NCBI GenBank assembly: GCA_001770815.1
Contig: MESD01000078.1
Location: 1 to 40,068, forward strand
Direction of reading: 5' to 3'
Source of the DNA: Burkholderiales bacterium RIFCSPHIGHO2_12_FULL_69_20
GTDB taxonomy: Bacteria; Pseudomonadota; Gammaproteobacteria; Burkholderiales; Burkholderiaceae_C
Length of the DNA stretch: 40,068 bases
The notes under the pieces are model-generated. The model was not told where the DNA came from. It saw only the letters and a list, made by a program, of their open reading frames with translations, and did no database searches. The translations under genes and the position numbers were made by a program. This document shows positions 4,979-40,068 of this stretch, one piece after another (position 1 is the first letter of the stretch; every line of letters begins with the position of its first letter).

Positions 4979-6280
4979 ATGCTGGACTACCACCAACCCG
5001 ACGCCCGCGGGCATTTCGGGCCTGTCAATGGCACCAACTATGGCGGCACCTTCGTCGCCGAGACATTGGTGCATGCGCTCGACGAACTGCGCGACGCCTA
5101 CGAGCACTACCGCCAGGACGAGGCCTTCATGGCCGAGTACCGCCACGAGCTGGCGCACTTCGTCGGCCGGCCCAGCCCGGTCTACCACGCCGACCGGCTG
5201 AGCCGCGAGATCGGCGGCGCGCAGATCCACCTCAAGCGCGAAGACCTCAACCACACCGGCGCGCACAAGATCAACAACACCATCGGCCAGGCGCTGCTGG
5301 CCAAGCGCATGGGCAAGCCGCGGGTGATCGCCGAGACCGGCGCCGGCCAGCATGGCGTGGCCACGGCCACCATCTGCGCGCGCTATGGGCTCGAATGCGT
5401 GGTTTACATGGGTTCAGAGGACGTCAAGCGCCAGAGCCCCAACGTCTACCGCATGCACCTGCTGGGCGCGCGCGTGGTGCCGGTCGAGAGCGGCAGCAAG
5501 ACGCTGAAGGACGCGCTGAACGAGGCGCTGCGCGACTGGGTGACCAACGTCGAGAACACCTTCTACATCATCGGCACGGTGGCCGGGCCGCACCCCTACC
5601 CGACGATGGTGCGCGATTTCCAGCGCGTGATCGGTGATGAGTGCCTGGTGCAGATGCCCGATCAAATCGGCCGCTTGAATGGCCGCAAGGACGCGCAACC
5701 CGACGCGGTGATCGCCTGCGTGGGCGGCGGCAGCAACGCGATGGGCATCTTCTACCCCTACATCCCGCACGAGCACGTGCGCCTGATCGGCGTCGAGGCG
5801 GCCGGCCTGGGGCTCGACAGTGGCAAGCATTCAGCCAGTCTGATCGCCGGCTCGCCCGGCGTGCTGCACGGCAACCGCACCTATCTGCTGCAGGACGACA
5901 ACGGCCAGATCACCGAAACGCACTCGATCTCGGCCGGTCTCGACTACCCCGGCGTCGGCCCCGAGCATGCGTTCCTGAAGGACATCGGCCGCGCCGAATA
6001 CGTGGGCATCACCGACGCCGAGGCGCTCGCCGCCTTCCACCGGCTGTGCCGCACCGAGGGCATCATCCCGGCGCTGGAATCCAGCCACGCGGTGGCCTAT
6101 GCGATGAAGCTGGCCGCCACGATGGCGCCGAGCCAGCACCTGCTGGTCAATCTCAGCGGGCGCGGCGACAAGGACATCGGCACCGTGGCCGACTTGTCGG
6201 GCGCCGAGTTCTACTGCCGCCCGTCGTGCAAGGGGCAGTCGGTCAAGGGTGGTGTGCAGGTGGTCGAGGTGACGAAATGA
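4979..6280 (+). CDS. trpB: Tryptophan synthase beta subunit
   Basis: TrpB condenses indole with serine to make tryptophan, using PLP, in the alpha2-beta2 complex with TrpA. The 433-residue protein has the PLP lysine K97 in HTGAHKINN (K87 in Salmonella numbering). The catalytic Glu is E119 in AETGAGQHG, and the phosphate-binding glycine loop is [10 protein letters not shown]. It starts with the usual [18 protein letters not shown] after a short head. The start follows trpF by 68 bases without an obvious promoter. The stop codon overlaps the trpA start by 4 bases (ATGA), typical of translational coupling of the two subunits. Confidence 0.98.
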
Positions 6281-7089
6281 GCCGCATCGCTGGCACGCTG
6301 GCCGCGCTGAAGGCCCAGGGCCGCAAGGCGCTGATCCCCTACATCGCCGCCGGCGATCCGTTCCCCGAGGCCACCGTCGAGATCATGCTGGCGCTGGCCG
6401 AGGGTGGCGCCGACATCATTGAGCTGGGCGTGCCGTTCTCCGACCCGATGGCCGACGGCCCGGTGATCGCCCAGGCCGCCGAGCGGGCGCTGGCACGGGG
6501 CATCGGCATGCTGCAGGTGCTCGACTTCGTGCGCGGCTTCCGCAAGACCAACACCACCACGCCGATCGTGCTGATGGGCTACGCCAACCCGGTGGAGCGC
6601 TACGACCAGAAGCACGGCGCCGGCGCCTTCATCCGCGATGCGGCCGAAGCGGGTGTCGACGGCCTGCTGATCGTCGACTACCCACCCGAGGAATGCGAGC
6701 AGTTCTCGGCCGATCTGGCTGCGGCCGGGCTGGACCTGATCTTCCTGCTGGCACCCACCAGCACCGCGCAGCGCATGGCGCAGGTGGGCCGCATCGCCAC
6801 CGGCTATGTTTACTACGTGTCGCTCAAGGGCGTGACCGGCGCCGGCCACCTCGACACCGCTGCGGTGGCCGAGGCCGTGCCACGCATCCGTGCGCATGTC
6901 AAGGTGCCGGTTGGGGTAGGCTTCGGCATTCGTGATGCCGTCACGGCGCAGGCCGTGGCCAAGGTGTCGGATGCGGTGGTGATCGGTTCGCGGCTGGTGC
7001 AGATCCTGCACGCCGAGGGCCGCGAGACCGCCGCCGCGGCGGGCAAGGCCTTCATGGCCGAGATCCGCAGCGCCATCGACACGCTGTAA
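6277..7089 (+). CDS. trpA: Tryptophan synthase alpha subunit
   Basis: TrpA cleaves indole-3-glycerol phosphate to indole, which is channelled to TrpB. The 270-residue protein is full length. The catalytic residues fall at exactly the Salmonella positions, E49 ([11 protein letters not shown]) and D60 (MADGPVIQ-type segment, here MADGPVIAQ). The phosphate loop (VGVGFGIRD) and the VSLKGVTG segment are intact. The start ATG overlaps the trpB stop. The gene ends 18 bases before accD, so trpF-trpB-trpA-accD is likely one unit, as in other betaproteobacteria. Confidence 0.98.
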
Positions 7090-7107
7090 CCGCCAGGAGA
7101 GCACCCG

Positions 7108-7980
<873 letters not shown>

Positions 7981-8001
7981 CCGGGCAAGCCCGCCTGCCA
8001 T

Positions 8002-8032
8002 CCGGGCCCCTAAGCGGGCCCGGTTTTGTTTT
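8002..8032 (+). terminator. Rho-independent terminator after accD
   Basis: CCGGGCCC at 8002-8009 pairs perfectly with GGGCCCGG at 8016-8023 around a 6-base loop, followed by TTTTGTTTT at 8024-8032. It has all the parts of an intrinsic terminator for accD. It ends only 10 bases before the folC start codon, so folC either depends on read-through or on a promoter within accD. Confidence 0.88.
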
Positions 8033-8042
8033 CACCGCCGAG

Positions 8043-9338
8043 ATGACCCTGCCCACCACGCTGGACCAATGGCTCGCCCACTGCGAGCAATTGCATCCCA
8101 AGACCATCGACATGACGCTCGACCGCGTGGCCGCGCTGTGCGACCGGCTGGGCCTGCGCTTTGACGTGCCGGTGGTGGCGGTGGCGGGCACCAACGGCAA
8201 GGGCTCGTCCTGCGCCATGCTCGAGGCCATCGCGTTGGCCGCCGGTTACCGGGTGGGGCTGTACATCAAGCCGCATCTGGTGCACTTCGAGGAGCGCTGC
8301 CGCATCAACGGCCAGATGGCCAGCGCCGAGTCGCTGCTGCCCCACTTCCAGGCGGTGGAGGCGGCGCGCCAGGGCATCACGCTGACCTGGTTCGAATACA
8401 CCACGCTGGTGATCATGCGCGTGCTGGCCCAGGCCGACGTCGATCTGGTGATCCTCGAGGTGGGCATGGGCGGGCGGCTCGACGCCGTCAACGCGGTGGA
8501 TGCCGATTGCGCACTGATCACCAGCATCGCGCTCGACCACACCGAGTTCCTCGGCAACGACCGCGAGGCCATAGCCCGCGAGAAGGCCGGCATCATGCGA
8601 CGGGCCAAGCCGGTGGTGGTCAGCGATCCGCAGCCGCCGGCCTGCCTGAAGGCGCGCGCCGACGAACTGGGTGCCGATCTGCGCCAGCTGGGTATCGACT
8701 TCAACGTGCAAGGTGACAAGCAGCAATGGGCCTGGCGCGGCCGCAACCAGCGCTTCAACGGCCTGGCCTACCCGGCACTGCGCGGCGCCAACCAGCTGCT
8801 GAACGCCGCCGGTGTGCTGGCGGTGTTCGAGGCGCTGCGCGAGCGGCTGCCGATCAACGCCCAGGCGGTGCGCAACGGGCTGGCGATGGTGGAGCTGCCG
8901 GGCCGCTTCCAGATCGTGCCCGGCCAGCCCACGCTGGTGCTGGACGTGGCGCACAACCCGCAATCGGTGGCGGCGCTGGCGCTCAACCTCGACCAGATGG
9001 GCTACTTTCCGCAGACCCATGCGGTGTTCGGCGCCATGCGCGACAAAGATCTGGCCCACCTGCTGCCGTACCTGGCGCCGCTGGTCGACCACTGGCACCT
9101 CACCGACCTGCCCACGCCGCGGGCGGCGCGCGCCGATGAACTGGCCGAGCTGGTGCGGGCGGCCAGTGGCGGCCGGCCGATCAGGATCAGCACCCATGCC
9201 AACCCTGCGGCGGCGCTGCAGGCGGCCGCGGCCGGTGCAGACCCGGCTGATAGAATCGTGGTCTTCGGTTCATTCTTCACCGTGGGCGGTGTGCTGAAAG
9301 ACGGCTTGCCCCGCCTGGCGGCCCGGCATCTGGGCTGA
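8043..9338 (+). CDS. folC: Bifunctional dihydrofolate synthase / folylpolyglutamate synthase
   Basis: FolC adds glutamate to dihydropteroate and then further gamma-glutamates to folate, using ATP. The 431 residues show the Mur-ligase-like ATP loop GTNGKGS at 49-55, the LEVGMGGRLDAVNA and TSIALDHTEFLG segments of the central domain, and the C-terminal domain beginning at about 286 (LPGRFQIV, LDVAHNP). Length is normal. The ATG at 8043 has only a weak ribosome site (GCCGAG) and stands 10 bases behind the accD terminator. The accD-folC order is conserved in pseudomonads and betaproteobacteria. Confidence 0.96.
   Translation: MTLPTTLDQWLAHCEQLHPKTIDMTLDRVAALCDRLGLRFDVPVVAVAGTNGKGSSCAMLEAIALAAGYRVGLYIKPHLVHFEERCRINGQMASAESLLPHFQAVEAARQGITLTWFEYTTLVIMRVLAQADVDLVILEVGMGGRLDAVNAVDADCALITSIALDHTEFLGNDREAIAREKAGIMRRAKPVVVSDPQPPACLKARADELGADLRQLGIDFNVQGDKQQWAWRGRNQRFNGLAYPALRGANQLLNAAGVLAVFEALRERLPINAQAVRNGLAMVELPGRFQIVPGQPTLVLDVAHNPQSVAALALNLDQMGYFPQTHAVFGAMRDKDLAHLLPYLAPLVDHWHLTDLPTPRAARADELAELVRAASGGRPIRISTHANPAAALQAAAAGADPADRIVVFGSFFTVGGVLKDGLPRLAARHLG
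9248..9256 (+). promoter_or_regulatory. Candidate extended -10 promoter inside folC, driving the SPOR-cvpA-purF run
   Basis: TG-A-TAGAAT at 9248-9256 is an extended -10 element (TG one base before a hexamer matching TATAAT at 5 of 6). It stands out in GC-rich coding sequence near the folC 3' end. No good -35 is visible, which extended -10 promoters can tolerate. Transcription would start near 9263, about 150 bases before the SPOR gene. This is inferred from sequence alone. Confidence 0.35.
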
Positions 9339-31909: not shown

Positions 31910-33151
31910 ATGAGCCTGGCCCCCGGTCTGATCGACGTGCAGGTGCACGATGCGTTGGCCATGCGCAACGCGGGGGCCGACCTGCTGCAACTGGCGCTGA
32001 TGGACGCGCGCAACCGCACGCTGGGCTGGCTGTCGGCCTTCGACGATCTGCAGTTTTCCAGCAGCTTCGACGGCTTCGATCCACCGTGGTGGCTGGCGGG
32101 GCGGGCGGCCTGGTTTCAGGAGTTCTGGGTGGCGCGCCATGTGCAGCGTGGCCGCGGCGAGTTGGCCGATCCCACCGGGCTGCGGCTGGCGTCGGTGCAT
32201 CCCCGTGCCGATGCCTGGTTCGATCCGCAGGCCAGCACCCGGGCCCAGCGCTGGCAGCGCCGCACGCCCAATGCCCAGGTGCTGCGCCAGTACCTGGCCG
32301 ATACGCTGGACACCACGCTCGAGCTGCTCGACAAGGCCGAATCCGACGATGCCGCGCTGCACGTCTACCGCCTGGCGCTGTACCACGAAGACCGGCTGGG
32401 CGAGGCGCTGGCGGTGCTGGTGCAGGCGCTCGACCTGGCACCCGAGCGGCAGCAGGCGCTGATCGAGCGCGGCCTGTGGCCGGCGCTGCCCGGCCGGGGC
32501 CGGCGCGAGGCGATGGTGCTGGGCGGCCAGCGGCTGATCCTGGGCTCGCCACGCGGTGGCTTCGTGCCCGAGGCCGAGCGCTGGGCGCACGAGGTGGCCG
32601 TGGCCGAATTCGAGATCGACGCGCAGCCGGTGTGCTGGGCGCAGTTTGCCGAGTTTGTCGAGGACGGCGGCTACGACGAGCGCCGCTGGTGGACCGAGGC
32701 CGGCTGGGAGATGCTGGACGCCACCGCCCGCCGCGCGCCGCGCTACGTGGAGCAGGTGTCGGGGGGCGTGCTGGCACGCCGACAGGGCCGGCTGCAGCGG
32801 CTGCCGGGGCAGCAGGCGGTGCTGCATGTCAGCGCCCACGAGGCCGAGGCCTGGTGCTGCTGGGCCGGCCGGCGGCTGCCCGCCGAGGCCGAGTGGGAGC
32901 TGGCTGCCACGCAGGCGGCCTCGCGCGGTTTTGCCTGGGGCGAGGTGGCCGAGTGGGTGGCGGGCCGGGCGCGGCCTTATCCGGGCGGGTCGGCGGTGCC
33001 GGCCCTGGCCACCGCCGAAGAACCGGCCCAGCGTGTGCTGCGCGGGGCCTCAGCCTGGGGCAGTGCGCGCCTGCGGCATGCGCGCGCAAGGCAGTTCGTC
33101 GCCGCGGGGCGGGACGATCGGTTCGTCGGCTTTCGCAGCTGCCTCATTTAG
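31910..33151 (+). CDS. EgtB/SUMF1-like protein with a degraded iron site
   Basis: This 413-residue protein has the two-part layout of the ergothioneine-type sulfoxide synthases: an N-terminal DinB-like helical domain (about 1-180) and a C-terminal formylglycine-generating-enzyme-like domain (about 200-413). The C-terminal domain shows VCWAQFAEFVEDGGYDERRWW, AWCCWAGRRLPAEAEWELAA and FVGFRSCL. In EgtB-like enzymes three His hold the iron, one in a W..GH..WF segment and two in HxxxH. Here the first is R65 (AGRAAWFQEFW) and the HxxxH is H159-EDR-L163, so only one ligand remains. Catalysis as in EgtB is therefore doubtful. No EgtD methyltransferase is nearby. It may be co-transcribed with dxs. Confidence 0.78.
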   Translation: MSLAPGLIDVQVHDALAMRNAGADLLQLALMDARNRTLGWLSAFDDLQFSSSFDGFDPPWWLAGRAAWFQEFWVARHVQRGRGELADPTGLRLASVHPRADAWFDPQASTRAQRWQRRTPNAQVLRQYLADTLDTTLELLDKAESDDAALHVYRLALYHEDRLGEALAVLVQALDLAPERQQALIERGLWPALPGRGRREAMVLGGQRLILGSPRGGFVPEAERWAHEVAVAEFEIDAQPVCWAQFAEFVEDGGYDERRWWTEAGWEMLDATARRAPRYVEQVSGGVLARRQGRLQRLPGQQAVLHVSAHEAEAWCCWAGRRLPAEAEWELAATQAASRGFAWGEVAEWVAGRARPYPGGSAVPALATAEEPAQRVLRGASAWGSARLRHARARQFVAAGRDDRFVGFRSCLI

Positions 33152-33290: not shown

Positions 33291-33923
33291 CTACTTTTCG
33301 ACCAGGCCTTCGCGCACGGCCAGCCGCACCAGCGAGGTGACGCCGCTGACGCCCAGCTTGGCCATCACCCGGCTGCGGTAGGTGTCCACCGTCTTGGGCG
33401 ACAGGTGCAGCTGGCCGCCGATGGCGGCACTGCTCAGGCCGTTGACGACCATCGTGACGATCTGGCGCTCACGCGGCGACAGCAGCGAAAACGGATCGGC
33501 TGGCGTGTCGTGGGTCAGCGCCTGCAGGGCCAGGTCGGCCACTTGCGGGCCGAAGAATCGGCGGCCGTTGGCCACGGTCTCGATGGCCAGCAGCAACTCG
33601 GCCGCACCGGCGTCCTTCAGCACATAACCCGAGGCCCCGAGGCGCACCGCCTCGGCCACGTCGCGTGGCTGGGCCGACATCGTCAGCACCACCGCCTTGA
33701 CCGATGAACCGCGGCGCTTCAACTCATGCAGCACCTCGAAACCCGAGCGCTCGCCCAGCCCCAGGTCGAGCAGCATCACCTGGGCCTGCAGTTGTTGTGC
33801 CTCCACAACGGCCTGGGTCGGATCGCCGCTGGCGCCGACCACCTGATGCCCGGCTGTTTCCAGCAGGGCGTGCAGGCCGTCACGCAGGATGAGTTGATCG
33901 TCGACCAAATAAACCCGCGTCAT
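33291..33923 (-). CDS. NarL/FixJ-type response regulator
   Basis: This is a two-domain DNA-binding response regulator of 210 residues. The receiver has the acidic pair D8-D9, the phosphoacceptor D53 (MLLDLGLGE), the Thr in VVLTMSA and the Lys in LKDAG. The output domain is LuxR-like, with LSPRERQIVTMVVNGLSSAAIGGQLHLSPKTVDTYRSRVMAKLGV. The ATG at 33923 begins MTRVYLVDDQ. No sensor kinase is in the window. It is divergent from the PqqU-like receptor operon. NarL-type regulators such as ExaE and AgmR control PQQ alcohol dehydrogenases in pseudomonads, so control of the adjacent quinoprotein genes is a reasonable inference. Confidence 0.92.
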   Translation of the reverse strand: MTRVYLVDDQLILRDGLHALLETAGHQVVGASGDPTQAVVEAQQLQAQVMLLDLGLGERSGFEVLHELKRRGSSVKAVVLTMSAQPRDVAEAVRLGASGYVLKDAGAAELLLAIETVANGRRFFGPQVADLALQALTHDTPADPFSLLSPRERQIVTMVVNGLSSAAIGGQLHLSPKTVDTYRSRVMAKLGVSGVTSLVRLAVREGLVEK

Positions 33924-34197: not shown

Positions 34198-36303
34198 ATG
34201 AGTTCAATGTTGCTGACGCGATCGACCCTGTCCCTGGCCTGCATCACGCTGCTGTCGTCGGCGGCCTGGGCCCAGGCCGCCGACGTGGTGATCACCGGAT
34301 CGGCCCGCGCCCAGCGCGTGCTGGATGCACCGTTTGCCATCACCGCGATCGATGCCACGGCCCTGCGCGACGCCGGGCCGATGGTCAACCTGTCGGAGGT
34401 GATGGCCCAGGTACCCGGCGTGGTGGTGAACAACCGCAACAACTATGCGCAAGATCTGCAGATCAGCTCGCGCGGCTTCGGCGCGCGAGCGGCCTTCGGC
34501 GTGCGGGGGCTGCGGCTGTATGCCGACGGCATCCCCGCCACCATGCCCGACGGGCAGGGCCAGGTGGCCCACTTCGACCTGGCGGGTGCGCAGCGCATCG
34601 AGGTGCTGCGCGGGCCGTTCTCGGTGCTGTACGGATCCAACTCGGGCGGCGTGATCGCCTTGTTCACCGCGCCGGTGAAAGCGGGCGTGGCCGAGGTCGG
34701 GCTGGACGTCGGCAGCTTCGGCCTGCGCCAGGGCCGCATCAGCGTGGCCGCGCCGCTGGGCCAGGTGGCCGGCGGTGCGCTGGACCTGCGCGCCAGCCTG
34801 GGCAGGATGGACCTCGACGGTTTCCGGCCGCAGAGTGCCGCCGATCGCCAACTGGGCCATGTGCGGCTGGGCTGGCAAGGTGGGCGCGACGCGCTGACGG
34901 TGCAGTTGTCCGACCATGAGCAGTCGGCGCAGGATCCGCTGGGGCTCACGGCCGCGCAGTTTGCCGCCGACCCCCGGCAGACCACGCCGCAGGCGCTGCA
35001 GTACAACACCCGCAAGACCATTGCCCAGACCCAGGGCGGCGTGAACTGGCGCCACCAGTTTGCCGGCGAGGGCGCGTTGCGCGAGTCGTCGGTGACGCTC
35101 TACCAGGGCACGCGCGCGGTGACGCAGTGGCAGTCGATTCCGAGCTTTGTGCAGGTTGACGAACGCCGTCCGGGCGGCGTGGTCGACTTCGATCGGGATT
35201 ACGGCGGTGTCGAGGGCAAGCTGTCGCTGCTGCTGGGTGCCACCGATCTGGCCGTGGGGCTGAGCGTCGAGACCCAGCAGGATGACCGCCGCGGTTTCGA
35301 GAACTTTCTGCCCGGCCCGCCGGCGGTGCTGGGCGTGACCGGCCGCCAGCGCCGTGACGAAACCAATCGCGCCACCACGACCGAGGGTTTTGTACAGGCG
35401 CAGATGCCGGTGGCCGAGCGCCTGACCGTCACCGGCGGGCTGCGTGGCGGGCGCGTCGAGATGAGCACCCATGACCGCTACATCGTTGGACTCAACGGCG
35501 ACGACTCGGGTGAGCTGTCGTATTCGTTTGTCAATCCGGTGCTGGGCCTGCGCTGGGCGGTGTCGCCGGGCTGGGTGGTGCATGCCAGCGCCGCGCGCGG
35601 CTTCGAGTCGCCGACGCTGGGTGAACTGGCCTACCGAGCCGATGGCGCCGGTGGCTTCAACGTCGATCTGCAGCCCCAGAAGAGCCGGCAGATCGAGCTG
35701 GGCAGCAAGTGGCGCGGCGGCGGGCTGTCGGTCGACGCGGCGGTGTTCGCCGTCAACACCGACAACGAGATCGGCGTGCTGTCCAACATCGACGGTCGGT
35801 CGGTCTTCCAGAGCGTGGGCCGCACCCAGCGCCGGGGTGCCGAACTGGCGCTGGGCTGGGCGATCAACAGCCGGCTGCGCCTGCAGGCCGCCGCCGCCTG
35901 GCTGGACGCCGAGTACCGCGACGCCTTCGGTCCGACCACCGCCCGGGTGCAGCCCGGCAACCAGTTGCCGGGCACCCAGCGCAGCAGCGCCTGGGCACAG
36001 GCCGCGTGGCAGCCCGGCGTGGTGCCCGGTGAGTTTGCGCTGGAGTGGCGTGCCGTGGCCAGCACCGCCGCCAACGATGTCAACACCGCGTCAGCGCCCG
36101 GCTACGCGCTGGCGCACCTGCGCTGGCGTGCCCAGTTCAAGCTGGGCCCGACCGATGCCCTGGAGGTGTTGGCCCGGGTGGACAACCTGTTCGATCGGGT
36201 GCACGCTGGCAGCGTGATCGTCAACGACGGCAACCAGCGTTTCTTCGAGCCGGGCGCACCGCGCAACGGCCTGCTGTCGGTGCGCTGGCAGCACCGCTGG
36301 TAA
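34198..36303 (+). CDS. pqqU: TonB-dependent outer-membrane receptor, PqqU (YncD)-like
   Basis: This is a 701-residue outer-membrane receptor, probably importing pyrroloquinoline quinone. A signal peptide ends near AWAQA, followed by the TonB box DVVITGS at 29-35, the plug domain, and a beta-barrel ending in Trp. It shares long stretches with what I recall of E. coli YncD/PqqU: NNYAQDLQIS, the segment DGIPATMPDGQGQ, RIEVLRGPFSVLYGSNSGGV, NTRKTIAQTQGGV, GDDSGELSY, ARGFESPTLGELAYRADG, RRGAELA and VDNLFDRVHAGSVIVND. E. coli PqqU is a TonB-driven PQQ importer. The link is strengthened by the quinoprotein dehydrogenase two genes further on. It lies 21 bases before the SoxYZ-like gene. TonB/ExbBD are not in the window. 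Confidence 0.82.
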   Translation: MSSMLLTRSTLSLACITLLSSAAWAQAADVVITGSARAQRVLDAPFAITAIDATALRDAGPMVNLSEVMAQVPGVVVNNRNNYAQDLQISSRGFGARAAFGVRGLRLYADGIPATMPDGQGQVAHFDLAGAQRIEVLRGPFSVLYGSNSGGVIALFTAPVKAGVAEVGLDVGSFGLRQGRISVAAPLGQVAGGALDLRASLGRMDLDGFRPQSAADRQLGHVRLGWQGGRDALTVQLSDHEQSAQDPLGLTAAQFAADPRQTTPQALQYNTRKTIAQTQGGVNWRHQFAGEGALRESSVTLYQGTRAVTQWQSIPSFVQVDERRPGGVVDFDRDYGGVEGKLSLLLGATDLAVGLSVETQQDDRRGFENFLPGPPAVLGVTGRQRRDETNRATTTEGFVQAQMPVAERLTVTGGLRGGRVEMSTHDRYIVGLNGDDSGELSYSFVNPVLGLRWAVSPGWVVHASAARGFESPTLGELAYRADGAGGFNVDLQPQKSRQIELGSKWRGGGLSVDAAVFAVNTDNEIGVLSNIDGRSVFQSVGRTQRRGAELALGWAINSRLRLQAAAAWLDAEYRDAFGPTTARVQPGNQLPGTQRSSAWAQAAWQPGVVPGEFALEWRAVASTAANDVNTASAPGYALAHLRWRAQFKLGPTDALEVLARVDNLFDRVHAGSVIVNDGNQRFFEPGAPRNGLLSVRWQHRW

Positions 36304-36324
36304 GACCTGCTGCGCCCACCTCCC

Positions 36325-37128
36325 ATGCAACGTCGCTTCATCCTGCTGGCCGCCCTGTGCGGGGGACTTGTCACCCCGGCGCGGGCGGCCGCGCCCGACC
36401 CCGACCCCTTCGACGGTGATCCCTTCAAGTCCTACCAATGGGTCGACCTGAAGAAGGCGTTTCTCGGCGCCCAGGCGCGGGTGCAGTTCGACCCCCGCGT
36501 GAAGGTGCAAGGCCCGGCTTTTGCCGAAGACCCGATGAACGTGCCCATCACCGTGTCGGCCGATCTGGCGGGCGTGCAGCGGCTGATCGTGCTGGTCGAT
36601 CGCAACCCGATCCGCAAGGTGCTGGAGCTGCAGCCGCTGGCGGCGCAGCCGGGGGTGAGCTTTCGCTTCAAGCTGGAGCAGGCCTCGCCGGTGCGCGCGC
36701 TGGCCCAGACGGCCGATGGCGTGTGGCATGTGGGCGGCACCTGGGTGGATTCGTCGGGCGGCGGCTGCACGGTGGCCGGCGCCACCCGCGCCGACGGCAG
36801 CTGGACGCAGACGCTGGGGCAGGTCAGCGGCCGGGTCTTTGCCTCCGGCCTGCCGACATCCGCCAACGCAGGTGACAGCGCCGCGCGGCTGCGGGTGCGG
36901 ATCATGCATCCCATGGACACCGGGCTGGTCAACGGCATCCCGGCGTTCTTCGTCAGCAAGCTCAGCGTGCGCGATGGCGCCGACCGCGAGTTGCTGCGCA
37001 TCCAGACCTTCGAGCCGGTCAGCGAGAACCCGGTGTTCAGCTTCGACTTTGCCAAGGCGCCCCCCGGGCCGCTGCGCATCGTGGGCGTGGACAACAACGG
37101 CAACCGCATCCTGAGCACCATCGAATGA
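36325..37128 (+). CDS. Quinoprotein dehydrogenase-associated SoxYZ-like carrier protein
   Basis: This 267-residue exported protein fuses SoxY-like and SoxZ-like domains. It has a signal peptide (about 1-22, cleaved near ARA). The SoxY-like half (about 35-155) ends in SSGGGCTVAG. C148 is the only Cys of the mature protein and sits where SoxY carries its substrate-bearing cysteine arm, although here the arm is internal. The SoxZ-like half (about 160-267) has RVRIMHPMDTGLVNG, the family's HPMxTG motif. Such fusions are known next to PQQ dehydrogenases and are named as carriers by analogy; the actual cargo is unknown. It shares 4 bases with the next gene and is probably in the PqqU-like operon. 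Confidence 0.85.
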   Translation: MQRRFILLAALCGGLVTPARAAAPDPDPFDGDPFKSYQWVDLKKAFLGAQARVQFDPRVKVQGPAFAEDPMNVPITVSADLAGVQRLIVLVDRNPIRKVLELQPLAAQPGVSFRFKLEQASPVRALAQTADGVWHVGGTWVDSSGGGCTVAGATRADGSWTQTLGQVSGRVFASGLPTSANAGDSAARLRVRIMHPMDTGLVNGIPAFFVSKLSVRDGADRELLRIQTFEPVSENPVFSFDFAKAPPGPLRIVGVDNNGNRILSTIE

Positions 37129-38120
37129 AGCACATCGCCCCCCTGTCCGGTGCGCTGGCCCTGATCGGCGGTTTGCTGTTCGCACCAGCGTCGCCGCCGG
37201 TGTCAGCACAGGGCCAGGCTGTGGCGCCGGTGGTCAACGTCACGCGGCTCGACTACGGCCTGAGGGCGCGTGCCTTGGCCGATGGGGTCTACGTGGTAGC
37301 AGGCGCCAACGCCGACTTCTCGGTGGCCAACGGCTGCAACATCATCAACACCGGCTTCATCACCACCGGCGCCGGGGTGCTGGTGATCAACACCGGCACC
37401 AGCCGGCTGTATGGCGAGCAGTTGCGCGCGCTGATCGCCCGCACCACCCACGAGCCGGTGGTGCAGGTGCTGCACCTGAACCTGCACCCCGATTACTTCC
37501 TCGGCAACCAGGCCTTTGCCGACGTGCCCATCGTCGCCACGGCGGCCACCCGCGCCGGCATGCAGCGCGAGGCCAAGAGCTACGAGGACAACCTCTACCG
37601 CCTCTGCGGCGACTGGATGAAGGGCACCGAGGCCCGCTTGCCCACGCAGACCATCGGCGCCGGCCCGCTGCGCATCGGCCAGCGTGAATTCGAACTGCGC
37701 GAGTACAACGGCCACACCGCCAGTGACCTGGTGCTGATCGACAAGGCCAGCGGCGTGGCCTTCGTCGGTGGCCTGGTCTTTGCCGACCGTGTGCCCACCA
37801 CGCCGCATGCCGACCCCAGCGCCTGGCTGCGCACGCTGGATGCGCTGGCCGGCCTGAAACTGGGCACGGTGGTGCCCAGCCACGGCCCGGTGCACGAGGG
37901 CCAGCGCGGCCTGCAGCAGACGCGTGACTTCCTGCAGTGGCTGGACGGCAGCTTCACGCGCTGGGCCGCCCAGGGCTGGGAGATGAACGAGGTGCTGCGC
38001 GCCAAGCCGCCCGAGCCCTTTGCGCGCTGGGCCGCCTGGCCGGCCGAATACACCCGCAATGTGGCCCACCTCTATGCGCGTTATGAGCGCGCTGCGCTGC
38101 AGCGCGGCAAACCGCCCTGA
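37125..38120 (+). CDS. Metallo-beta-lactamase-fold protein, quinoprotein relay (SoxH-related) type, with altered metal site
   Basis: This 331-residue exported hydrolase-fold protein belongs to the SoxH-related group found with PQQ dehydrogenases. A signal peptide ends near VSA. The first metal motif, normally HxHxDH, reads N119-L-H121-P-D123-Y124 (LNLHPDYFLGNQAF), so two His are replaced. H197 (NGHTASDL) and H253 (SHGPV) keep two later ligand positions, while the bridging Asp of GD(L/V)F is Gly216 (VGGLVFADR). At most part of a zinc site remains. Whether this is the norm for the subfamily I cannot tell. It starts in the stop of the SoxYZ-like gene, which suggests the two act together. Confidence 0.82.
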   Translation: MKHIAPLSGALALIGGLLFAPASPPVSAQGQAVAPVVNVTRLDYGLRARALADGVYVVAGANADFSVANGCNIINTGFITTGAGVLVINTGTSRLYGEQLRALIARTTHEPVVQVLHLNLHPDYFLGNQAFADVPIVATAATRAGMQREAKSYEDNLYRLCGDWMKGTEARLPTQTIGAGPLRIGQREFELREYNGHTASDLVLIDKASGVAFVGGLVFADRVPTTPHADPSAWLRTLDALAGLKLGTVVPSHGPVHEGQRGLQQTRDFLQWLDGSFTRWAAQGWEMNEVLRAKPPEPFARWAAWPAEYTRNVAHLYARYERAALQRGKPP

Positions 38121-38238
38121 CGCGCCATGCAGCGCCATGAAGCGCCGTTGCGTCACCCGGCCTTGCCCGCTGTGCAAAGCTGGAACACCCGGGCCCGGGC
38201 TTACCCTGGAATCGAAGCCCTTGTCGTCGCCATGGACG

Positions 38239-38257
38239 ATGGCACGCTTCGTGCCAT
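38239..38257 (+). promoter_or_regulatory. Inverted repeat containing a sigma-54-like -24/-12 site before the PQQ dehydrogenase
   Basis: ATGGCACG (38239-38246) and CGTGCCAT (38250-38257) form a perfect 8-base inverted repeat around CTT. The same bases give TGGCACG-N4-GTGCC: the -24 element is perfect, and the GG (38241-42) and GC (38253-54) are separated by exactly 10 bases, as sigma-54 promoters require. The -12 element is weaker (GTGCC for TTGCA/T). Transcription would start near 38266, about 60 bases before the ATG. It could instead be a regulator-binding palindrome. The rest of the 206-base gap has a 12-base CCCGGGCCCGGG palindrome (38188-38199) and little else. Confidence 0.45.
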
Positions 38258-38326
38258 GAATTATTCCTGAAGCAGCGGTCCTTGTATCCCGTTGTGACAA
38301 CCCCATCCCCTGGAGGAGACATCACC

Positions 38327-40068
38327 ATGAAACTGAAGCTTCTGAGCTTGCTCGTCACCGTCAGCCTGGCGTCGTTGGGCGCCCAGGCGGCCACCCCGGT
38401 CACCGATCAGATGATCGAGAACGACGCCAAATCCACCGGCGATGTGCTGAGCTGGGGCATTGGCCAGCAAGGCCAGCGCTACTCGCCGCTCAAGGCCATC
38501 AACACCGGCAACGTGGCCAAGCTGCTGCCGGTGTGGGCGTTCTCGTTCGGCGGCGAAAAGCAGCGCGGCCAGGAAACCCAGCCGCTGCTGCACAACGGCA
38601 AGATGTTCGTCACCGCGTCGTACTCACGCATCTTCGCGCTCGACGCCAAGACCGGCACCAAACTGTGGAAGTACGAGCACCGGCTGCCCGACGGCATCAT
38701 GCCCTGCTGCGACGTGATCAACCGCGGCGCGGCGCTGTACGGCAACCTGGTGATCTTCGCCACGCTCGACGCCCAGCTCGTGGCGCTGAACCAGGATACC
38801 GGTGAGGTCGAGTGGAAGGAAAAGATCGACGACTACGCCGCCGGCTATTCGGCCACGGCCGCGCCGCTGATCGCCGGCGGCCTGCTGATCACCGGCGTGT
38901 CGGGCGGTGAGTTCGGCGTGGTCGGCCGCGTCGAGGCGCGTGACCCCATGACCGGCCGGATGGTCTGGAGCCGCCCGGTGGTCGAAGGCCACATGGGCAA
39001 GAAGTTCGACAAGGACGGCAACGCCAGCGACAACGGCGTCTCGGGCACGGCCGGCAAGACCTGGCCCGGCGACCTGTGGAAATCGGGCGGCGCAGCCACC
39101 TGGCTGGGCGGCACCTACAACGCCAAGACCGGCCTGGCCTACTTCGGCACCGGCAATCCGGCGCCGTGGAACAGCCACCTGCGCAAGGGCGACAACCTGT
39201 TCTCCACCTCCACCGTGGCGATCGACATCAAGACCGGCCAGATCGTCTGGCACTACCAGAACACGCCCAACGACGGCTGGGACTACGACGGCGTCAACGA
39301 GTTCGTCACCTACGACGAAGGTGGCCAGGTGCTGGGCGGCAAGGCCGACCGCAACGGCTTCTTCTACGTCAACGATGCCAAGACCGGCAAGCTGGTCAAC
39401 GCCTTCCCGTTCGTCAAGAAGATCACCTGGGCCACCGGCATCGACCTGAAGACCGGCCGGCCGAACTTCGTGCCCGAAGGTCGCCCGGGCGATCCCACCG
39501 CCGGCGCCGATGGCAAGAAGGGCAACGTGGTGTTCGCCGCGCCCTCGTTCCTGGGTGGCAAGAACCAGATGCCGATGGCCTATTCGCCGGAGACCAAGCT
39601 GTTCTACGTGCCGGCCAACGAATGGGGCATGGAGATCTGGAACGAGCCGGTCACCTACAAGAAGGGCGCGGCCTACATGGGCGCCGGCTTCACGATCAAG
39701 ACGCTGACCGACGGCCCCATCGGTGCGCTGCGCGCGGTCGATCCCAAGACCGGCCAGATCGTCTGGGAAGTGACCAACAACGCGCCGCTGTGGGGCGGTG
39801 TGCTGACCACCGGCGGCAACCTGGTGTTCTGGGGCACGCCGGAAGGCTTCCTGCAGGCGGCCGATGCCAAGACCGGCAAGGTGTTGTGGAAGTTCCAGAC
39901 CGGCTCGGGCGTGGTGGCTCCGCCGGTGACCTGGACCGAGGGCGGCGAGCAGTACGTGGCCGTGGCCTCGGGCTGGGGCGGCGCCGTGCCGTTGTGGGGC
40001 GGCGAGGTGGCCAAGAAGGTCAATTTCCTCGAACAGGGCGGCTCGATCTGGGTCTTCAAGATCCCCAA
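38327..40068 (+). CDS. PQQ-dependent alcohol dehydrogenase, lanthanide (XoxF/ExaF/PedH) type, 3' end cut off
   Basis: This periplasmic quinoprotein oxidises alcohols using PQQ. The visible 580 residues have a signal peptide (ends GAQA/AT) and an eight-bladed propeller with tryptophan-docking repeats ([46 protein letters not shown]). The vicinal disulfide is C127-C128. Metal and catalytic residues are E195 (GGEFG), N277 (GTGNPAPWN) and D319 in [10 protein letters not shown]321, two after the catalytic Asp, is Ala or Ser in calcium enzymes such as MxaF and is Asp in lanthanide enzymes. AGGAG lies 8-12 bases before the ATG. The window ends before the stop, so a C-terminal heme domain cannot be excluded. 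Substrate unknown. Confidence 0.93.

Follow-up and report, generated by a model that had tools for sequence, protein, structure and literature searches.

Import of pyrroloquinoline quinone (PQQ) through the TonB-dependent receptor PqqU is already known (PMC12124388), and so is the occurrence of SoxYZ-like and SoxH-like genes beside pedH (PMC12997753). The PqqU paper describes a residue signature for this receptor, consisting of Tyr, Phe or Trp at position 99 together with R304 and R365, and proposes that a Glu at position 274 lets a metal enter with PQQ (PMC12124388). For the SoxYZ-SoxH pair of the ped cluster, maturation, disulfide formation and shielding of PQQ from sulfur nucleophiles have been discussed as roles, all of them unproven (PMC12997753). 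In this study, we analyzed a stretch of 40068 bases (the window), one whole contig (MESD01000078.1) of Burkholderiales bacterium RIFCSPHIGHO2_12_FULL_69_20. Its last 5.9 kilobases (kb) contain four genes on the + strand, which code for a PqqU-like receptor, a SoxYZ-like carrier, a SoxH-like protein and a PQQ dehydrogenase, in the order claimed by the original prediction that had been made from the DNA letters. It is likely that this is a PQQ-scavenging locus. The idea that PQQ from outside is imported for the cell's own dehydrogenases appears well supported by the PqqU-like receptor, the lack of pqqB, pqqC and pqqE matches over cut-off, and the presence of two PQQ dehydrogenases in the genome.

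In the open-licence full-text literature, which does not cover supplements and subscription journals, we found no description of pqqU beside SoxYZ-like genes. The term SoxYZ is absent from the main text of the PqqU paper (PMC12124388), PqqU and YncD are absent from the main text of the 2026 ped review (PMC12997753), in which TonB occurs once and refers to LutH, and neither SoxYZ nor PP_2677 or PP_2678 appears in the main text of a paper on PQQ-binding proteins (PMC13088180). The locus ties a PQQ importer that was proven only recently to a pair of conserved proteins that are probably periplasmic. Its kin are partly in culture and differ naturally in PQQ synthesis genes, which makes both the cofactor supply of non-producers and the role of SoxYZ/SoxH testable and is of interest for the sharing of PQQ among bacteria.

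Identification of a PqqU-like receptor

The receptor gene (34198..36303, + strand) encodes 701 amino acids with a signal peptide read by eye. Its proposed likeness to E. coli PqqU/YncD was confirmed, with identity at 266 of 690 aligned positions (38.6%). In the NCBIfam search, it obtained 584 bits with the PqqU model NF041535 (below the equivalog cut-off of 1200 bits) vs 190 bits with the next TonB model, a general siderophore one. The runner-up place for NF041535 in the same genome had only 51.6 bits, so the likeness to PqqU lies far over the general TonB background. The cut-off was reached by E. coli and by none of 299 genomes of the family (best, 960 bits), and was presumably tuned to close E. 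coli orthologues. Our assignment of the receptor follows the published signature residues and does not depend on this cut-off. The window receptor carries this signature as F100, R306 and R364 in its own numbering. Among the 11 PQQ-site residues of E. coli PqqU, nine are identical (Q84, Q121, K274, R304, Q308, Q310, R365, Y481 and R536), and the other two are replaced by Phe (Y99, an accepted substitution) and Gly (N477). K274 and R536, which are important in E. coli and less conserved, are kept as K273 and R534. The single mention of position 447 in the PqqU paper (PMC12124388), a Trp in E. coli, was taken as a slip for N477.

We also built a receptor tree with a quick method from 88 rows, i.e., 79 PqqU rows (36 SoxYZ-adjacent, 30 from the family, 8 loose, 4 others and E. 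coli) and nine other receptors. The nine non-PqqU receptors lie on one side of a branch valued 99*, and E. coli PqqU falls among the PqqU-like rows; clustering with siderophore receptors, named beforehand as the finding that would speak against a PQQ importer, was not seen. None of the nine has Arg at position 365, and hence none fits the PqqU signature. Among the 36 SoxYZ-adjacent receptors, Q84, F99, Q121, K274, R304, R365, Y481 and R536 are invariant and Q308 is present in 35, while Q310 and N477 are variable. An AlphaFold2 model of the receptor (mean predicted local distance difference test score, pLDDT, 84.8) had as its top PDB fold match the PqqU-PQQ structure 9c4o (E 7.5e-70; template modeling score 0.93 by target length), followed by 6v81 and then FecA at E 2.8e-39. 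A PqqU-like identity of the receptor is thus supported by sequence, binding-site residues, tree and predicted fold. Position 274 is Lys in 79 of 79 PqqU rows; therefore, these receptors should import metal-free PQQ. Metal co-import through a K274E change was considered and found to be unsupported, because Lys is kept in the window receptor and in all PqqU rows.

These data also bear on the possibility that the receptor imports a lanthanide chelate for the neighboring dehydrogenase, in the manner of LutH or a lanthanophore receptor, instead of PQQ. LutH of M. extorquens is a TonB receptor that serves lanthanide enzymes (PMC7391723), the enzyme next to the window receptor has the lanthanide-type Asp (see below), and one class-wide SoxYZ locus (L220) has a non-PqqU-like TonB receptor alongside. 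However, the PQQ-site residues listed above are invariant in the 36 SoxYZ-adjacent receptors and the signature is found in none of the nine others, PqqU ranks first both by sequence and by fold, and the conserved Lys at position 274 argues against Glu-based metal entry. On the PQQ-site residues and the fold ranking, we rejected the lanthanide-chelate receptor as the principal explanation and regard it as very improbable, LutH having been compared by description only. As for L220, its TonB receptor gene (5877-8156) lies directly before the SoxYZ-like gene and scores 150 bits with the siderophore model and 104 bits with the PqqU model, both below cut-off; it is perhaps a lanthanide-chelate receptor.

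PQQ dehydrogenases and PQQ synthesis genes

The fourth gene of the locus (38327..40068, + strand) encodes a PedH-type PQQ-dependent alcohol dehydrogenase, which matches TIGR03075 with 733.9 bits (cut-off 480). The start is better placed at ATG 38327, preceded by a GGAGGAG stretch, than at TTG 38282; 580 codons are seen and no stop codon is present because the contig finishes at 40068. Of the solved structures, 6zcv/6zcw rank first (799 bits); they are listed as quinoprotein ethanol dehydrogenase, and we take them to be PedH of P. putida. Next come 1flg (651 bits), presumably ExaA, and XoxF-type enzymes (344-347 bits). Lanthanide-type PQQ alcohol dehydrogenases have a second Asp two residues past the catalytic Asp. 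The window residues D319-Y320-D321 (39281..39289, + strand) align with DFD of 6zcv and DFS of 1flg, so the dehydrogenase is predicted to be of the lanthanide type (PedH/ExaF), as proposed earlier and supported here by the Asp at the PedH position. The Asp at this position was found in 45 of 46 SoxYZ-locus dehydrogenases that are >70% identical, the remaining one giving no pattern match. The window genome contains two PQQ dehydrogenases of the TIGR03075-type family, the second being 41% identical and also having the Cys-Cys pair and Asp-Tyr-Asp.

The genome assembly of the window bacterium consists of 219 contigs and is 96.7% complete. By profile search, pqqC was not found in it, pqqB had no match over cut-off (best 135 bits vs 245), and pqqE had none either (best 44 bits vs 381, with no control genome passing this cut-off). 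As positive controls, pqqC was detected in 71 of 299 family genomes and pqqB over cut-off in 11 of 14 genomes. Three PqqD-domain matches were rejected as a sign of PQQ synthesis, since the same frames hold Peptidase_M50 (two) or HlyD (one). The absence of pqqABCDE, first noticed for the window, therefore extends genome-wide for pqqB, pqqC and pqqE over cut-off (pqqA was not searched), and it seems from these profile searches that the bacterium is unable to make PQQ. The rival view, that the cell makes its own PQQ and the pqq genes are missing through incomplete assembly, is quite improbable. It draws on the fragmentation of the assembly and on three of the five genomes of the same genus (G143, G227 and G296), which have pqqB and pqqC. 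Against it, none of pqqB, pqqC and pqqE has a match over cut-off in the window genome (G000), and a second genome of the genus, G011 (99% complete), shares the four-gene locus and is likewise without pqqB and pqqC matches over cut-off. A natural mix was also observed within one genus, where G076 has pqqU without pqqC, G181 has pqqC and SoxYZ-SoxH with no pqqU match, and G259 has both pqqU and pqqC.

The SoxYZ-like and SoxH-like proteins

The second gene (36325..37128, + strand) encodes a quinoprotein-associated fused SoxYZ-like carrier of 267 amino acids with a twin-Arg-like leader by eye; signal-peptide-like leaders, also read by eye, begin all four proteins of the locus. The carrier matches TIGR04557 with 219.7 bits (cut-off 140) and fails the models for true thiosulfate oxidation, TIGR04488 (61.2 bits; cut-off 125) and TIGR04490 (35.3 bits; cut-off 76). 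Its GGGC(T) loop between the SoxY and SoxZ parts, including C148 (codon 36766..36768, + strand), is invariant in 17 of 17 aligned SoxYZ-like sequences. The third gene (37125..38120, + strand) encodes a SoxH-like metallo-beta-lactamase-fold protein of 331 amino acids (quinoprotein relay system zinc metallohydrolase 1), which matches TIGR04558 with 394.9 bits (cut-off 300). Its structure model (pLDDT 92.5) has a clear metallo-beta-lactamase fold, the top PDB match being 8d2z, a protein of this superfamily. The canonical dinuclear-zinc motif of the fold is HxHxDH. Instead of this motif, the window protein has N-L-H-P-D-Y (N-x-H-x-D-Y in the family), and in an alignment of 75 sequences H121, D123, H197 and H253 occur in all 75 and Y124, C71 and C161 in 74. 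Because the metal motif is not canonical, the TIGR04558 name "zinc metallohydrolase" is less safe than it sounds, and the metal content and activity of these proteins look unusual from their residues. The first three genes are packed like an operon: pqqU and soxYZ are separated by 21 nucleotides (nt), and soxYZ and soxH overlap by 4 nt. From soxH to the dehydrogenase gene, the distance is 206 nt.

One alternative role for these two proteins concerns the product of the dehydrogenase: the SoxYZ cysteine would trap the reactive aldehyde as a thio-adduct, which SoxH would hydrolyze in a glyoxalase-II-like manner. The metallo-beta-lactamase fold of SoxH fits such a reaction, as do ald20 genes (aldehyde dehydrogenases by eye) near SoxYZ in several loci and an aldehyde:ferredoxin oxidoreductase cluster behind pqqU-soxYZ-soxH in locus L050. 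However, the frequent position of the pair behind pqqU with no dehydrogenase gene right after it is left unexplained by a product carrier, and the non-canonical metal-site motif of SoxH counts against it. We consider a product carrier unlikely in itself, though a fair rival to the adduct-removal role discussed below.

Distribution of the pqqU-soxYZ junction

We carried out three surveys of the neighborhood of pqqU and soxYZ. The first covered 299 genomes of the family (PqqU at E up to 1e-80; SoxYZ over cut-off with no stop) and found PqqU in 172, pqqC in 71 and fused SoxYZ in 62 genomes; PqqU and pqqC occurred together in 56, PqqU only in 116, pqqC only in 15 and neither in 112, and 55 of the 62 SoxYZ genomes also had PqqU. 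One further SoxYZ match over cut-off contained a stop and was not counted. Among the matches listed, 11 of 150 PqqU had a same-strand SoxYZ 129-266 nt downstream (measured between model matches), and eight further PqqU-SoxYZ pairs lay within 8 kb on the same strand. Seven of the 11 adjacent pairs, including that of the window, continue with SoxH and a dehydrogenase, and four with SoxH and no dehydrogenase in the fetched stretch. In two loci of the same genus (L069 and L071), PqqU adjoins a different dehydrogenase, and SoxYZ is not in the fetched stretch.

The second survey scanned named genomes with the SoxYZ alignment and used the best 80 of 282 loci, mostly from titled Burkholderiales genera or unresolved betaproteobacterial metagenome-assembled genomes (MAGs); some genomes were shared with the first survey. 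PqqU was directly upstream (same strand, <700 nt) in 36 of the 73 loci that had at least 2.2 kb upstream. Among the 62 loci with both flanks, SoxH followed SoxYZ in all 62; PqqU and a dehydrogenase flanked the pair in 10, PqqU only in 19, a dehydrogenase only in 25 and neither in 8, a dehydrogenase being counted within 2.2 kb on the same strand (in some loci one lies further off). In these loci, pqqU often stands before SoxYZ, and the dehydrogenase gene is often not right behind. For 50 of these 62 genomes, comprising all 29 with PqqU and 21 chosen by eye from the 33 without it, pqqC was also searched. It was missing in 14 of 29 genomes with adjacent PqqU vs 3 of 21 without (Fisher p 0.016), many of the genomes being MAGs by title, and a PQQ dehydrogenase over cut-off was found in 50 of 50. 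Among the ten four-gene loci, L081 (Rubrivivax pictus, an isolate) and L082, L084 and L109 (MAGs) are without pqqC, and six have it. Among cultured relatives in which pqqC was not found, Ideonella paludis has the three-gene form of the locus.

In the third, class-wide survey, fused SoxYZ was detected at E up to 1e-44 in 42 of 369 genomes. Examination of 57 loci (the listed matches minus the window and three with an internal stop; several cut by contig ends) revealed PqqU within the fetched flanks (up to 5 kb) in none of them. The carriers in these loci are mostly distant from that of the window, with a SoxYZ match of at least 38% identity in 11 of 57. We therefore rejected the view that PqqU belongs to the SoxYZ module in general, with the qualification that most of these carriers are distant, and the pqqU-soxYZ junction appears in these samples to be confined to the wider kin of the window.

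The SoxYZ-adjacent receptors occupy three places in the PqqU tree, i.e., the large group of the window (mostly Sphaerotilaceae by title), L146/L159, and L156 (Hydrogenophaga palleronii). A single clade of these receptors was rejected (p-value of the approximately unbiased test 7.7e-6, quick tree; two rows of the same genus joined the test once the first tree had been inspected). Repeated meeting of the genes, repeated receptor replacement in place, or an old adjacency followed by losses would all give this pattern, and either of the first two would speak for a working link between pqqU and SoxYZ.

It might be argued from these surveys that pqqU is a chance or historic neighbor, regulated and used alone, and that the true unit is soxYZ-soxH(-pedH), made up of PQQ-dehydrogenase helpers. 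Such a view would account for SoxH following SoxYZ in every both-flank locus when pqqU precedes it in 29 of them, for the absence of PqqU near the 57 class-wide loci, and for the 139 of 150 PqqU, among the matches listed, that are not directly beside SoxYZ. It fits less well with the 11 nearest pairs, which share strand and order and lie 129-266 nt apart, with adjacency on three PqqU lineages (for which repeated loss from one origin is also possible), and with the 19 of 29 loci in which pqqU and soxYZ stand together with no dehydrogenase within 2.2 kb. We regard mere neighborhood as rather doubtful.

Proposed function of the locus

For the PQQ-scavenging locus that we prefer, the following mechanism can be envisaged. 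As a first, strongly supported step, the PqqU-type receptor would bind metal-free PQQ at the cell surface and bring it into the periplasm by TonB-driven entry. In the second step, which we infer from the genes, imported PQQ would fill both the neighboring periplasmic PedH-type dehydrogenase and the other PQQ dehydrogenase that the genome encodes, since the cell appears to be without pqqB, pqqC and pqqE; the lanthanide or calcium ion for these enzymes would arrive by another route. As a third step, offered tentatively, the SoxYZ-like and SoxH-like proteins might form a periplasmic maturation or repair pair for PQQ or the dehydrogenase, in which an adduct of sulfur or another nucleophile, sitting on PQQ or on the Cys-Cys ring of the enzyme, would be transferred to the swinging cysteine of SoxYZ and then cleaved off by SoxH. 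PQQ collectors may meet more adducts, which could explain the pair behind pqqU on several lineages.

In favor of the suggestion that the relay pair might handle PQQ, the pair stands directly behind pqqU in many loci, also without a dehydrogenase gene right behind and on three PqqU lineages. A role specific to import did not hold, because the pair occurs without a neighboring pqqU in genomes with pqqC (18 of 21 tested; pqqU elsewhere was not searched) and none of the 57 class-wide loci has PqqU within the fetched flanks. Two bounds are thus set on its function: SoxYZ-SoxH occur together with PQQ dehydrogenases (50 of 50) and show no tie to import. Keeping adducts off PQQ or the active site would be consistent with both bounds and with the guesses in the literature; adduct removal or maturation is the role that we favor. 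A narrower and unlikely variant is that pqqU-soxYZ-soxH is a dedicated PQQ-salvage unit, in which the SoxYZ-like protein carries or cleans imported PQQ and the SoxH-like protein helps to strip covalent adducts of thiols, sulfite and amino acids, so that clean cofactor goes to apo-dehydrogenases wherever they are encoded. If true, it would mean that a free redox cofactor is salvaged in the periplasm and would account for the conserved pair.

Several points weigh against a PQQ-scavenging locus of this kind. The receptor scores below the NF041535 cut-off, and its model has pLDDT <50 at residues 98-102, including contact F100, and at 119-121, beside Q122. In the pqqE search, no control genome passed the cut-off, and a gap among the contigs could hide a compact pqq operon. 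Because 56 of the 172 PqqU genomes also carry pqqC, the presence of PqqU alone does not mean auxotrophy. Nor is it established that adjacency of pqqU and soxYZ is a predictor of lost PQQ synthesis, although the raw counts favor it: only three pairs on starred branches of the SoxYZ tree (five on all) differ in PqqU adjacency, and kinship-independent pairs are thus too few. With regard to the third step, SoxYZ-SoxH occur in many loci without a neighboring PqqU, and transposon data from P. putida without lanthanide point to minimal effects (PMC12997753).

Neighboring genes

Divergent from pqqU lies a gene for a LuxR/NarL-type response regulator (33291..33920, - strand; 209 amino acids from the likely ATG; Response_reg and GerE domains), whose top NCBIfam likeness is UvrY/GacA at 141 bits, below the cut-off of 280. 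Members of its cluster (no. 17) also precede pqqU in divergent orientation in two loci of the same genus (L049 and L054), and it is possible that this regulator controls the locus. Two genes before pqqU, positions 31910-33151 encode a protein similar to SenA (selenoneine synthase), with 335 bits, below the cut-off of 420.

Elsewhere, a regulator of the LysR type (HTH and PBP_like domains) is often found beside pqqU-soxYZ-soxH, for instance within the stretch 9474-16030 of L050, with cluster 8 also present in L048, L052, L053, L055-L057 and L074; a LysR/PBP-type regulator gene occurs in 13 of the 19 PqqU-only loci of the second survey. Next to the regulator in L050 are genes for an aldehyde:ferredoxin oxidoreductase, for a ferredoxin-type protein and for a tungstate-binding protein of the TupA kind (below model cut-off), which hints at a tungsten enzyme beside the PQQ unit. 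In addition, the wider PQQ dehydrogenase/SoxYZ/pqqU cluster contains a gene for the flavoprotein of a flavocytochrome c sulfide dehydrogenase (L058, 2154-3467; cluster 23, also in L059, L066 and L067, with the domain scan made on the L058 copy only), a second sulfur-type protein near a quinoprotein.

Comparison with known systems

The window receptor resembles E. coli PqqU (YncD; PDB 9c4o/6v81; PMC12124388) in fold and in nine of 11 PQQ-site residues, and E. coli uses PQQ without making it (PMC12124388), as the window bacterium appears to do. The window receptor differs from E. coli PqqU in sequence (38.6% identity), in the Gly in place of N477 and in falling under the NCBIfam PqqU cut-off; moreover, pqqU of E. 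coli K-12 lies between mcbR and yncE, whereas that of the window is the first gene of an operon-like row and is followed by SoxYZ-SoxH and a dehydrogenase. LutH is likewise a TonB receptor serving a lanthanide-dependent PQQ enzyme, but its substrate is a lanthanide and its lut cluster includes an ABC transporter (PMC7391723), a comparison made by description only.

Regarding the other genes, the SoxYZ-like and SoxH-like proteins of the window pass the cut-offs of both quinoprotein relay families, TIGR04557 and TIGR04558, the relay in these family names being unproven. In Hyphomicrobium denitrificans, a Sox(YZ) fusion and SoxH also lie beside a PQQ-dependent enzyme, and the authors saw no connection of the pair with sulfur oxidation (PMC11582611); unlike in the window, a PQQ receptor is not mentioned in the description of that system (PMC11582611). 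The ped cluster of P. putida, with PP_2677 (SoxYZ-like), PP_2678 (SoxH-like) and pedH, has the same soxYZ-soxH-pedH order as the window (PMC12997753). P. putida has PQQ biosynthesis genes (PMC12997753), whereas pqqB, pqqC and pqqE had no match over cut-off in the window genome. In the window, the corresponding row of genes is headed by pqqU.

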